In this document: piece after piece, positions 722-3,717 of the stretch
How the letters are laid out: each line of letters opens with the position of its first letter
Position numbering within the stretch: position 1 is the first letter of the stretch
NCBI RefSeq assembly: GCF_000426685.1
Contig: NZ_AUFV01000007.1
Span: forward strand, 124,001-188,000
Direction of reading: 5' to 3'
DNA length: 64,000 bases
From: Solimonas flava DSM 18980
Lineage (GTDB): Bacteria; Pseudomonadota; Gammaproteobacteria; Nevskiales; Nevskiaceae
Program-made: the position numbers and the translations under genes
Notes under the pieces: generated by a model
Database searches by the model: none
The model's input: the letters and a program-made list of their open reading frames with translations, nothing else
Told to the model about the DNA's origin: nothing

Positions 722-2836
722 ATGGCAGTACCTGCCACTCCAGCCGTGCCCGTCAAAAAGACGTTCCGCTACGGCAAGCACAATGTGACGTTCGAAACCG
801 CCGCCATCGCCCGTCAGGCGACCGCGGCGGTCATGGTGCATGTCGACGACACGGTCGTCTTCGTCAGCGTCGTCGGCAAGAAGGAAGCCAAGCCCGAGCA
901 GGACTTCTTCCCGCTGACCGTCGACTACATGGAGCGCTTCTACGCCGGCGGCCGCATCCCCGGTGGCTTCTTCAAGCGCGAAGGCCGTCCGACCGAGAAG
1001 GAAACGCTGACCTCGCGCCTGATCGATCGTCCGCTGCGCCCGCTGTTCCCGGAAGGCTTCTACAACGAAGTCCAGATCGTGGCGATGGTGATGTCGCTGA
1101 ATCCGGAGATCGACGGCGACATTCCGGCGATGCTCGGCGCCTCGGCGGCGCTGGCCCTGTCCGGCATCCCGTTCCAGGGCCCGATCGGCGCCGCCAAGGT
1201 CGGCTACAAGGACGGCAACTACATCCTCAACCCGACGGCCACGGAACTGGAGACTTCGGATCTCGAACTCATCGTCGCCGGCACCAAGGACGCCGTGCTG
1301 ATGGTCGAGTCGGAAGCCAAGATGCTGTCCGAACCGGTCATGCTTGGTGCCGTCCTGTTCGGCCACGAGCAGATGCAGGCCGCGATCCAGGCGATCAACG
1401 AGTTCGCCGCTGAAGCCGGCAAGGCGAATTGGGACTGGCAGCCCGCCGACCGTTCGGTCGTCAAGGCTTTCGTCGCCCAGTTCGAAGCCGAGATCGCCGA
1501 CGCCTACGGCATCACCGAGAAGCAGGCGCGCTACGCCAAGCTCGACGAGGTGGCCAAGAAGGCCAAGGCCGCCCGCGCCGCCGATGCGCCGTTCACCGAG
1601 AATCAGCTCAAGGCTGAGCTCGATGAGCTGAAGGCGAAGATCGTCCGCAACCGTATCCTCGACGGCGCGCCGCGTATCGACGGCCGCGATCGCTTCACGG
1701 TCCGTCCGCTGGCGATGTCGGCCGGCGTGTTGCCGCGTACCCACGGCTCGGCGCTGTTCACGCGCGGTGAGACGCAGGTGCTGGCGGTGACCACGCTGGG
1801 CACCGGCAAGGATTACCAGATCATCGACGCCGTCGAAGGCGAGTGGCATGAGCACTTCATGTTCCACTACAACTTCCCGCCGTACTGCGTCGGCGAGACC
1901 GGCCGCCTGAACGCGCCGAAGCGCCGCGAGATCGGCCACGGCCGCCTCGCCAAGCGCGGCGTTGCCGCCGTGATGCCGGATCTCGACAGGGAGTTCCCGT
2001 ACGTCGTCCGCGTCGTCTCGGAAGTCACCGAGTCGAACGGATCGAGCTCGATGGCCTCGGTCTGCGGCGCGTGCCTCGCGCTGATGGACGCGGGCGTGCC
2101 GATCAAGGCGCCGGTGGCCGGCGTGGCGATGGGCCTGATCCTCGAGGAAGGACGCTGGGCCGTGCTGACCGACATCCTGGGCGACGAGGATCACCTCGGC
2201 GACATGGATTTCAAGGTGGCCGGCACCAAGGACGGTATCACCGCGCTGCAGATGGACATCAAGATCACCGGCATCACCGGCGAGATTATGGCCCAGGCGC
2301 TGCAGCAGGCGCAGACCGCTCGTCTGCACATTCTCGAGCAGATGGTGCAGGTGCTGCCGACGCCGCGTTCGCAGCTGTCGCCGCACGCGCCGCGCATCAC
2401 CACGATCAAGATCAACCCGGACAAGATCCGCGACGTGATCGGCAAGGGTGGCGCGACCATTCAGGCGATCACCAAGGAAACCGGCACGACGATCGACATC
2501 GAGGACGACGGCACGATCAAGATCGCTGCGGTCGACGGCAAGGCGGCGGAAGCCGCAATCACGCGCATCAATGCGCTGACGCGTGATGTCGAGGTGGGCA
2601 CGATCTACGAAGGCCGCGTCGCCAAGATCATGGACTTCGGCGCGTTCGTGACGATCGCGCCGGGCAAGGATGGTCTGGTGCATATCTCGCAGCTCGCCGA
2701 CAAGCGCGTCGAGAAGGTCGAGGATGTCGTCAAGGAAGGCCAGACCGTGCGCGTCAAAGTGCTCGAGGTCAGCCGCGACGGCAAGATCCGCCTGTCGATG
2801 AAGTCGAGCGACGTCGGGGCCCCGGCGACGGCCTGA
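722..2836 (+). CDS. pnp: Polyribonucleotide nucleotidyltransferase (PNPase)
   Basis: The 704-residue protein is the standard PNPase length. It is a phosphate-dependent 3'-5' exoribonuclease that acts in the cytoplasm with the RNA degradosome. Two RNase PH-type halves are visible: the first with [28 protein letters not shown]-like substrate loop, the second with [14 protein letters not shown] and [11 protein letters not shown]. They are followed by a KH domain (GxxG motif IGKGGATI near residue 578) and an S1 domain ([19 protein letters not shown], about 625 onward). The start ATG follows AGGGGTAG. A strong terminator lies just after the stop, so pnp ends the transcription unit. Confidence 0.98.
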
Positions 2837-2850
2837 TCGGCAGTAGAGCA

Positions 2851-2880
2851 AAAAAACGGCGCACTTCGGTGCGCCGTTTT
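2851..2880. terminator. Bidirectional rho-independent terminator after pnp
   Basis: AAAACGGCGCAC, a UUCG-type tetraloop and GTGCGCCGTTTT form a perfect 12-bp stem (2853-2864 with 2869-2880). The T run on the plus strand terminates pnp. The A run on the left (2851-2856) reads as a U tract on the minus strand, so it can also stop antisense transcription coming from the sRNA promoter at 3017-3045. Confidence 0.93.
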
Positions 2881-2907
2881 CGTTTGGAGAGCCGGATTCG
2901 GCGGCGC

Positions 2908-3010
2908 AAAAAAGAAACCCTCCGCAGGCGGAGGGTAAGGTGCGAGAAAGGCGCGTAGCCTTTCTGGAGGAGAGCGGTTCGAATCGCCGCCGCGCGGACG
3001 ATTCATGTTG
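2908..3010 (-). ncRNA. Candidate regulatory small RNA (~103 nt)
   Basis: Not a family I recognise. A near-consensus promoter on the minus strand (TTGACC, 17 bases, TATACT) predicts a 5' end near 3010. The transcript would contain a single-stranded 5' part ending in the pyrimidine run TCTCCTCC (2973 down to 2966), which is complementary to Shine-Dalgarno sequences. Next comes a hairpin with an 8-bp stem (2945-2952 with 2958-2965, 5-base loop). Last is a GC-rich hairpin (2917-2924 with 2929-2936) followed by a U tract (TTCTTTTTT, 2916-2908). No convincing coding frame ends within it: an ATG frame at 3004 runs through the terminator into antisense of pnp. Promoter, terminator and length fit a trans-acting sRNA; expression is inferred. 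Confidence 0.6.
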
Positions 3011-3016
3011 CAATGC

Positions 3017-3045
3017 AGTATAAAAAGGGTTGACCGATCGGTCAA
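3017..3045 (-). promoter_or_regulatory. Sigma-70 promoter with overlapping palindromic operator
   Basis: On the minus strand, -35 TTGACC (3045-3040) and -10 TATACT (3022-3017) are spaced by exactly 17 bases. A perfect 16-bp palindrome, TTGACCGATCGGTCAA (3030-3045), covers the -35 and half the spacer. Its half-sites resemble TetR-family operators and are close to the E. coli RutR motif TTGACCANNTGGTCAA. Position over the -35 implies repression. The regulator is not encoded nearby. Confidence 0.65.
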
Positions 3046-3054
3046 TTAAGAATC

Positions 3055-3087
3055 AAAAAAATAAGGCCTTCAAGATGAAGGCCTTAT
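3055..3087 (-). terminator. Rho-independent terminator of phaR
   Basis: ATAAGGCCTTCA and TGAAGGCCTTAT (3061-3072, 3076-3087) form a perfect 12-bp stem with a 3-base loop. It is followed on the minus strand by six T residues (3060-3055). It lies about 50 bases after the phaR stop and isolates phaR from the sRNA promoter just beyond. Confidence 0.9.
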
Positions 3088-3138
3088 CAAAGATTCAGAA
3101 AAGACGTGACGTTTTTCGTCACGGAATGACGGGGAGCC

Positions 3139-3657
3139 TCAGGGCAGCACGTCCTTCTGTACCTGTTCGTCGTCGCGGCCGGTACGGCGCTTGATCGCCT
3201 GGGCGCTGGCCTGGATGTTGTGCAGGAACTCCTTGCGGATCGAGCGCCAGATCGGCACCTGCCGGTCGGCCATTTCCTTGAGCACCTGCAGCGGCTGCTG
3301 GGCCTGTCCGAGCATCTGACGCAGCTGATCGGTGAAGTGCCCCTGCTGTTCCTGGAACAGGCGGGCCGACAGTTCGAGATAGCGGCCGATGCTGTTCTGC
3401 ATCGGGTCGCCGTAGTAGCGAATGATGAACTCGAGCAGTTCGGTGGTGAAGATCGGGTCGCCGCCTTCTTCCTGCTCGGCGATCACCTGCAGCAGAATGC
3501 TGCGCGTGATGTCCTCGTGCGTGCGCTTGTCCTCGACGCGAAACTTCACATCCTGCAGCACGAGCTGGCGGATTTCCTCCAGCGTGATGTAGCGGCTGAT
3601 GTGCGTATCGTACAAGCGCCGGTTCGGATACTTCTTGATGATGCGGACGTCGGACAT
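3139..3657 (-). CDS. phaR: Polyhydroxyalkanoate synthesis regulator PhaR
   Basis: This 172-residue protein has the N-terminal PHA-accumulation regulator DNA-binding domain, recognisable from IIKKYPNRRLYDT and SRYITLEEI. A PHB_acc segment (DITRSILLQVIAEQE, FIIRYYG) and a coiled helical tail follow. In other proteobacteria PhaR represses phasin and its own gene and is released by binding polymer granules. No phaC, phaB or phasin gene is in this window, so polymer storage is suggested only by the regulator. The ATG at 3657 is chosen because the family begins a few residues before the KKYPNRR motif. A GTG at 3672 would add five residues, and neither start has a strong ribosome site. Confidence 0.88.
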   Translation of the reverse strand: MSDVRIIKKYPNRRLYDTHISRYITLEEIRQLVLQDVKFRVEDKRTHEDITRSILLQVIAEQEEGGDPIFTTELLEFIIRYYGDPMQNSIGRYLELSARLFQEQQGHFTDQLRQMLGQAQQPLQVLKEMADRQVPIWRSIRKEFLHNIQASAQAIKRRTGRDDEQVQKDVLP

Positions 3658-3717
3658 AAGCACCGGATTCACGAGGCTTTGCTGCGATGCAGCGTATTGC
3701 GACGCATCATGCCAGAA

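Follow-up and report, generated by a model that had tools for sequence, protein, structure and literature searches.

A candidate PhaR-controlled anti-Shine-Dalgarno small RNA gene between pnp and phaR in Solimonas flava and related Nevskiales

The gap between the convergent genes pnp and phaR of Solimonas flava DSM 18980 carries on its minus strand what an earlier note, made from the letters of the DNA, described as an operator-controlled small RNA (sRNA). This raises the question of whether a stand-alone sRNA gene is encoded here and, if so, which regulator acts on it and to which kind of RNA its product belongs. We examined the locus within its window (the whole stretch of 64,000 nucleotides that was analysed), in the S. 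flava genome and in related genomes. Judging from sequence comparison, we think it likely that the locus holds a stand-alone gene for a trans-acting anti-Shine-Dalgarno sRNA that forms part of the PhaR (polyhydroxybutyrate, PHB) regulon, repressed by PhaR and induced by the polymer.

The small RNA gene in the pnp-phaR gap

The gap is bounded by pnp (722..2836, plus strand), which encodes RNase PH, KH and S1 domains, and by phaR (3139..3672, minus strand), which encodes the PHB-binding repressor. The phaR product is recognized by TIGR01848 (142-143 bits), PF07879 and PF05233, and is the only TIGR01848 match in the S. flava genome. The promoter claimed in the earlier note is present at its place on the minus strand: the promoter scan reports a -35 hexamer TTGACC (3040..3045) and, 17 nt away, a -10 hexamer TATACT (3017..3022), and this is the sole promoter-like site in 2400-3700, where shuffled sequences lead one to expect 0.3. 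The predicted sRNA of about 103 nt (2908..3010, minus strand) is delimited by promoter, terminator and fold, and scores 78.5 bits with R1, a covariance model of sequence and structure built from 40 aligned copies. Folded from 3011 to 2907, it reaches -40.9 kcal/mol (z -3.83), and none of 200 shuffles was equally stable.

All elements of the predicted fold lie on the minus strand. The full-length RNA would begin with a 5' stem-loop (2980..3005), whose sequence is poorly conserved and differs between copies, followed by the unpaired stretch UCUCCUCC (2966..2973), a candidate seed against Shine-Dalgarno sites. An inner hairpin of 8 bp (2945..2965) and an unpaired linker CGCACCUU (2937..2944), a second possible pairing site, lead to an intrinsic terminator found by the terminator scan, with a stem of 8 pairs (2917..2936), the tail TTCTTTTTTG and a U-rich tract extending to about 2908. 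Scan and fold thus reproduce the transcript length, inner hairpin and terminator hairpin proposed earlier, and the exposed pyrimidine stretch proposed along with them is UCUCCUCC. We infer that UCUCCUCC pairs with Shine-Dalgarno sequences. The gene had also been said to be insulated on both sides. Upstream this holds, as a terminator-like site behind phaR (3060..3088, minus strand; terminator scan) precedes the sRNA; on the other side the hairpin of the pnp terminator is visible in the sequence but absent from the terminator-scan list.

Homologues of the sRNA were detected by blastn in 37 of 41 whole genomes (S. flava and 40 relatives), and the S. flava genome also holds a second copy. R1 matches 80 of 85 Nevskiales genomes, a count that includes copies from which the model itself was built, and the sRNA core occurs in 20 of 21 genera; among genomes drawn from the class Gammaproteobacteria it matches 11 of 369. 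Conservation to this extent strongly supports the claim of a stand-alone sRNA gene. A scan of named genomes with the core pattern returned 44 stretches, mostly from Nevskia, Solimonas, Sinimarinibacterium, Hydrocarboniphaga and similar genera; some of the remainder are labelled only as Gammaproteobacteria or stand under other family names, and no Burkholderiales name appears among the 44. In the 40 aligned copies, a set chosen for that core, TCTCCTCC and CTTTCT.GCA are invariant (40/40), as are UCUCCUCC (columns 1-8) and the GCA of the CGCACCUU linker.

Structural features were counted in 86 copies, defined by the strict core within fetched loci; this set leaves out diverged cores and does not cover every R1 place. 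An inner stem of 8 or 9 pairs is present in all 86, the selection pattern itself containing parts of both arms, and it exists in five versions, with a G-C/A-U exchange at one pair. Terminators (a stem of at least 6 pairs plus a T tract) were called in 82 of the 86 copies, with 45 different stems in all; among the four others, the stem of L073 is bulged, and in three the caller picked a later stem. RNAalifold recovered 6 pairs on the MAFFT alignment, a small number that we attribute to the variable length of the terminators. Several genomes carry multiple or tandem copies, two to five per genome (L034 in G024, L007, L036 in G014, L037 in G026, G407 and G408).

Such a locus might also arise from two converging terminators and a promoter-like site that yield no functional RNA, or encode a short peptide, since there is an AUG near the 5' end of the sRNA. 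The frame of this AUG has no stop before the terminator in S. flava and is shut after three codons in the copy L005 (ATGAGCCAGTAA), and it is the core that persists across genera while the 5' part varies. We regard this explanation as highly improbable; the sRNA gene is very probably real, and its conservation is strong.

Linkage to phaR and a PhaR-type box at the start site

According to the blastn places, 29 of the 41 genomes have the sRNA behind phaR, in the same orientation and at a distance of no more than 1.5 kb, and R1 places add three more (G020, G038 and G039; 32/41). In 66 of the 86 distinct copies phaR is encoded by the same strand no more than 2 kb upstream, and pnp follows convergently in 57 of these 66; it was not found in eight, where up to 1.7 kb was examined, and one is without data. 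The earlier note held that absence of the promoter/terminator pair from close relatives that keep pnp and phaR would speak against the gene. Because phaR is linked in 66 of 86 copies and pnp in 57 of those 66, this point is answered in favour of the gene. Nineteen copies have no phaR in view; for these, upstream sequence of at least about 1.5 kb was available and was searched up to 2 kb, and one further copy has only 143 nt of upstream DNA. Linkage to pnp is retained in seven of the 19 and in the copy with short upstream DNA. Mere co-presence of PhaR and sRNA is uninformative here, because nearly all of the 41 genomes have both.

In another conceivable origin, the sRNA would arise chiefly as a by-product at the 3' end of phaR or phasin transcripts, active, if at all, after trimming, and its promoter would be weak or silent. 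Gene orders of this kind do exist: in G151 (L284) phaR is followed by PhaR boxes and a 110-aa phasin-like gene with the RNA in its 3' UTR, and G267 (L155) has the same boxes, phasin-like gene and 3' UTR position. The G151 protein matches no Pfam or NCBIfam family above cut-off and is named by appearance alone, and PhaR was not found in the fragmentary genome of G267. A described precedent for trimming is S17 of Bordetella: according to the available part of a preprint, RNase E trims a longer RNA to produce it (PMC11722255). Against such an origin, a terminator-like site follows phaR in S. flava, and a highly conserved -35/-10 pair precedes the RNA across the Nevskiales, so that we consider it very unlikely.

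The earlier note passed over a feature of the start site: the -10 hexamer TATACT runs directly into TGCAYYGCAACA, which matches the published PhaR operator core. The box scan places a PhaR-type operator, TGCATTGCAACA, at 3006..3017 on the minus strand (G000:C5:127006-127017), where it overlaps the -10 hexamer by that hexamer's last base and covers the predicted start. In the accessible text on Ralstonia eutropha, the PhaR consensus is YTKNTGCRNYGCANMAR, one site lies around the phaP1 transcription start, and the authors of the consensus allowed at most three mismatches (PMC12849132). The S. flava box differs from this Ralstonia consensus at 3 of 17 positions, all outside the core; it therefore stands at the allowed limit, and the S. 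flava copy qualifies as a promoter of the PhaR regulon by that definition.

The box core TGCRNYGCA occurs upstream of 76 of the 86 copies (mean 1.58 and maximum 6 in dinucleotide shuffles); the copies are mutually related, and these are therefore not 76 independent events. In 74 of the 86 the box is fused to the -10 hexamer, mostly as TATACTGCAYYGCAACA. A conservation profile of 80 of the 86 copies (58 clusters; six copies excluded) shows the box to be about as conserved as the -35 and -10 hexamers, with variable spacer and flanks. The closest orthologue, from Solimonas variicoloris (L004/L146), has one change inside the core (CGCATCGCA), and the box is missing from three further copies (the first copy of L071, L075 and L087). 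Two PhaR-type boxes also lie just upstream of phaR itself (3680-3691, minus strand, and 3698-3709, plus strand; G000:C5:127680-127691 and 127698-127709) and are candidates for self-control. The core stands before phaR in 20 of 77 distinct upstream regions (4.9 in shuffles, maximum 9), which points to moderate enrichment.

Across the S. flava genome, six of the matches listed, from a total of 158 in the box scan, read TGCAYYGCAACA, so that the box does not appear to be a general part of promoters. The 17-mer consensus is matched perfectly at five places; with one mismatch it occurs at 60, compared with 18 for the reversed pattern, and weak matches therefore carry little weight. One perfect place, TTGTTGCATTGCAACAA, lies in a promoter that serves a Phasin_2-like gene (PF09361), whose 23.4 and 23.7 bits fall just below the cut-off of 24.9 and which has no match in NCBIfam. 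Another precedes a third CTCCTCC RNA, which has a terminator of its own (L052, G000:C4:392587-392729, plus strand); this RNA was recognized by eye as double-hairpin-like, because its score against the Rfam family RF02278 (22.2 bits) is at the level of control genomes and no better than chance. At a further place (L103, G000:C6:136549) the perfect palindrome TTGTTGCATTGCAACAA stands before a membrane-like ORF of about 70 aa, which has no Pfam or NCBIfam match and is a candidate new gene of the PhaR regulon. The other perfect places are C9:85959 and one that is probably inside a coding region.

A second palindrome, TTGACCGATCGGTCAA, read directly in the sequence, covers the -35 hexamer (3030..3045) and is a possible second operator. 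It presumably resembles the site of a TetR-type regulator and could be one. It is found in two of the 86 copies, those of S. flava and its S. variicoloris counterpart, and was rejected as a conserved operator. The description of the sRNA as operator-controlled thus survives in spirit, by way of the PhaR-type box fused to the -10 hexamer, but not by way of the -35 palindrome.

Loss of the box can be followed in family f6, of which 14 copies were examined. Eight have both phaR and the box. In three genomes (G035, G445 and G032) the RNA is kept, the box is lost and no phaR is in view (3/3). R1 finds the sRNA in both G032 and G035, and TIGR01848 finds no PhaR in either genome; for G445 PhaR was sought only in the upstream 1.7 kb, and the G032 contig starts 143 nt before the RNA. 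In G035 dksA (Pfam DksA_N) lies upstream of the RNA and pnp is convergent, and G445 looks alike. Three of the 11 f6 copies with phaR (G441, G448 and G449) have lost the box although phaR adjoins, which speaks against a simple rule. Five f6 promoters without a PhaR box (L149/L236, L227, L228, L232 and L234) share a spacer element, ATACGAAAGTCGTA, and another regulator has perhaps taken over there. Beyond the Nevskiales, G077 has phaR, then TATGATGCACTGCAACA, then the RNA, and in four genomes with an R1 match and no PhaR (G053, G177, G289 and G384) no box was found in the 250 nt upstream.

These patterns bear on a further explanation, namely that the anti-Shine-Dalgarno sRNA is genuine but the box is the site of another regulator or a promoter or initiation element, that the proximity of phaR reflects inherited gene order, and that other factors exert control, for example at the -35 palindrome. 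The f6 genomes that keep phaR and have lost the box, the promoters with ATACGAAAGTCGTA in its place, the palindrome shared by S. flava and S. variicoloris and the persistence of pnp linkage where phaR is out of view are all consistent with it. It accounts poorly for a box that matches the published PhaR core, is also present in a phasin-like promoter, recurs upstream of a phasin-like gene in family f117, disappears from all three f6 copies without phaR in view and is no general part of promoters. We consider this explanation unlikely, and regard the link between PhaR and the sRNA as well supported by sequence and linkage.

Relation to described RNAs

Scans of the window at the Rfam gathering cut-off, and of the gap at E values up to 10, returned no family for the sRNA; the best matches in the gap (STnc320) fall on the pnp hairpin. 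In the literature found, in which subscription papers are scarce, we encountered neither a link between PhaR and an RF02278-type RNA nor an sRNA at a pnp-phaR locus. The statement of the earlier note that no sRNA had been described at this locus agrees with these scans and sources. Betaproteobacteria, however, are described as having RNAs built in the same way, and, as far as the accessible texts go, a PhaR homologue represses an sRNA, MmgR, in Sinorhizobium meliloti.

The RNAs of the same build include RF02278 (Betaproteobacteria_toxic_sRNA), with ncS03, ncS05, ncS27, ncS62 and bdhR1 of Burkholderia cenocepacia. According to the portions of the papers available, they likewise have two hairpins including a terminator, a CU-rich stretch facing ribosome binding sites and several copies per genome; an upstream motif is common to three copies, and levels are higher in glucose medium and starvation than in exponential LB cultures (PMC5688073, PMC4603805). 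They differ from our sRNA in having another inner hairpin and in belonging to Betaproteobacteria, not Nevskiales; their regulator is not named in those portions, one of which calls their transcriptional control unknown (PMC5688073). The two hairpins and exposed CU-rich stretch of RF02278 are found in our RNA, as judged by the fold and by an inner stem in 86/86 and a terminator in 82/86 of the pattern-picked copies. RF02278 was nevertheless rejected as its family: the 50-bit gathering cut-off is not reached and the S. flava copy is not listed at E 10, while the scores of the second and third S. flava copies (16.4 and 22.2 bits) carry no weight, because 13 of 14 control genomes also match at E 10. 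On account of these scores we do not file the sRNA in RF02278.

The second likeness is to Bordetella S17, by description and not by sequence. In the part of the preprint available, its trimmed form has a C/U-rich unpaired 5' end, an inner loop and a terminator; it depends on Hfq and represses an mRNA at the 5' region near the ribosome binding site, and the authors postulate an unidentified repressor at its promoter (PMC11722255). The S17 family of Betaproteobacteria is characterized by 27 identical nt with which its short form begins, and S17 has a glycosyltransferase gene and coq7, rather than phaR, as neighbours. The best reading, by analogy, is that our sRNA works like the RF02278 double-hairpin RNAs and S17.

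MmgR (alpha-r8), again likened by description, is in the accessible texts a trans-encoded RNA that has a connection to PHB storage and whose repressor is AniA, a homologue of PhaR; unlike our sRNA, it is alphaproteobacterial, under nitrogen control by NtrC, and lowers phasin protein levels (PMC8401924, PMC12542648). None of the 16 Rfam matches at E 10 is named alpha-r8, which Rfam may not hold. For NmsR of Neisseria we know of no link to PhaR. It resembles our sRNA, in the portion of the source available, in that its sibling RNAs, arranged in tandem, have unpaired CU-rich stretches whose complements are the ribosome binding sites of metabolic genes (PMC5688073).

RF02278-like matches occur in 102 of the 369 class genomes, two of them over the cut-off. 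Among 30 such loci that were fetched (L161-L190), CATCCTCC is present in 20, several of which show a promoter motif resembling ATATTAGAA...TACATACTGATT, and judging by sequence the CATCCTCC RNAs look like a widespread separate sRNA family of Gammaproteobacteria. No PhaR box was found in the 150 nt upstream in the 23 listed of these 30 loci, and the idea that all double-hairpin RNAs are PhaR-controlled was rejected on this ground. The two matches over the cut-off are in PhaR-bearing genomes. L161 (G262), a canonical RF02278 member, has no box in 250 nt; L162 (G146) has TGTTGCGTCGCAGCA upstream of TATACT, and a search for a relative of L162 among plasmids gave no match.

Proposed role in carbon storage

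Whereas the gene, its conservation, its linkage to phaR and the box can be read in the DNA, the scheme that follows, from transcription through PhaR binding, granule response and processing to the targets, is a prediction. In the absence of PHB, PhaR would occupy TGCATTGCAACA over the -10 hexamer and start site and block RNA polymerase. As PHB granules form, PhaR would move onto them and the sRNA would be made together with phasin. Titration of PhaR by PHB granules is described for phaP1 of R. eutropha in the accessible part of the source, which also reports activation by PhaR at phaP3 (PMC12849132). Since PhaR can activate as well, repression at our locus is deduced from the position of the box over the start. 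The sRNA would act whole, or trimmed just ahead of UCUCCUCC, and would mask the Shine-Dalgarno sites in a group of mRNAs by means of UCUCCUCC and CGCACCUU. These mRNAs would most likely serve the uptake or catabolism of carbon and nitrogen compounds, and metabolism would be adjusted to the stored-carbon state. By this scheme the cell probably switches the sRNA on when filled with carbon reserves.

Double-hairpin anti-Shine-Dalgarno RNAs, and with MmgR an sRNA repressed by a PhaR homologue, are already known from the sources available; relative to the literature found, a double-hairpin RNA linked to PhaR and an sRNA at the pnp-phaR locus are new. More tentatively, and with doubts that outweigh our confidence, we suggest a polymer-sensing regulon in which PhaR is coupled with at least one anti-Shine-Dalgarno sRNA as an inherited module of Nevskiales and other families of the class. 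The module would take one of two forms, either a PhaR operator at the promoter of the sRNA or an sRNA that makes up the 3' end of the mRNA of a phasin-like gene, and through it PHB granules would broadcast "carbon stored" to many mRNAs. If this were true, the repressor still missing for some RNAs of the RF02278 and S17 types would be PhaR, and the box of L162 fits such a role. Anti-Shine-Dalgarno RNAs with two hairpins are found repeatedly among Beta- and Gammaproteobacteria, and if one branch of them were paired with PhaR by inheritance, that branch would respond to a defined signal, namely how much PHB is stored. The pairing would make the physiology of the sRNA testable by a single phaR deletion, and would bring RNA into the control of PHA as an additional layer, which is relevant for producers of bioplastics.
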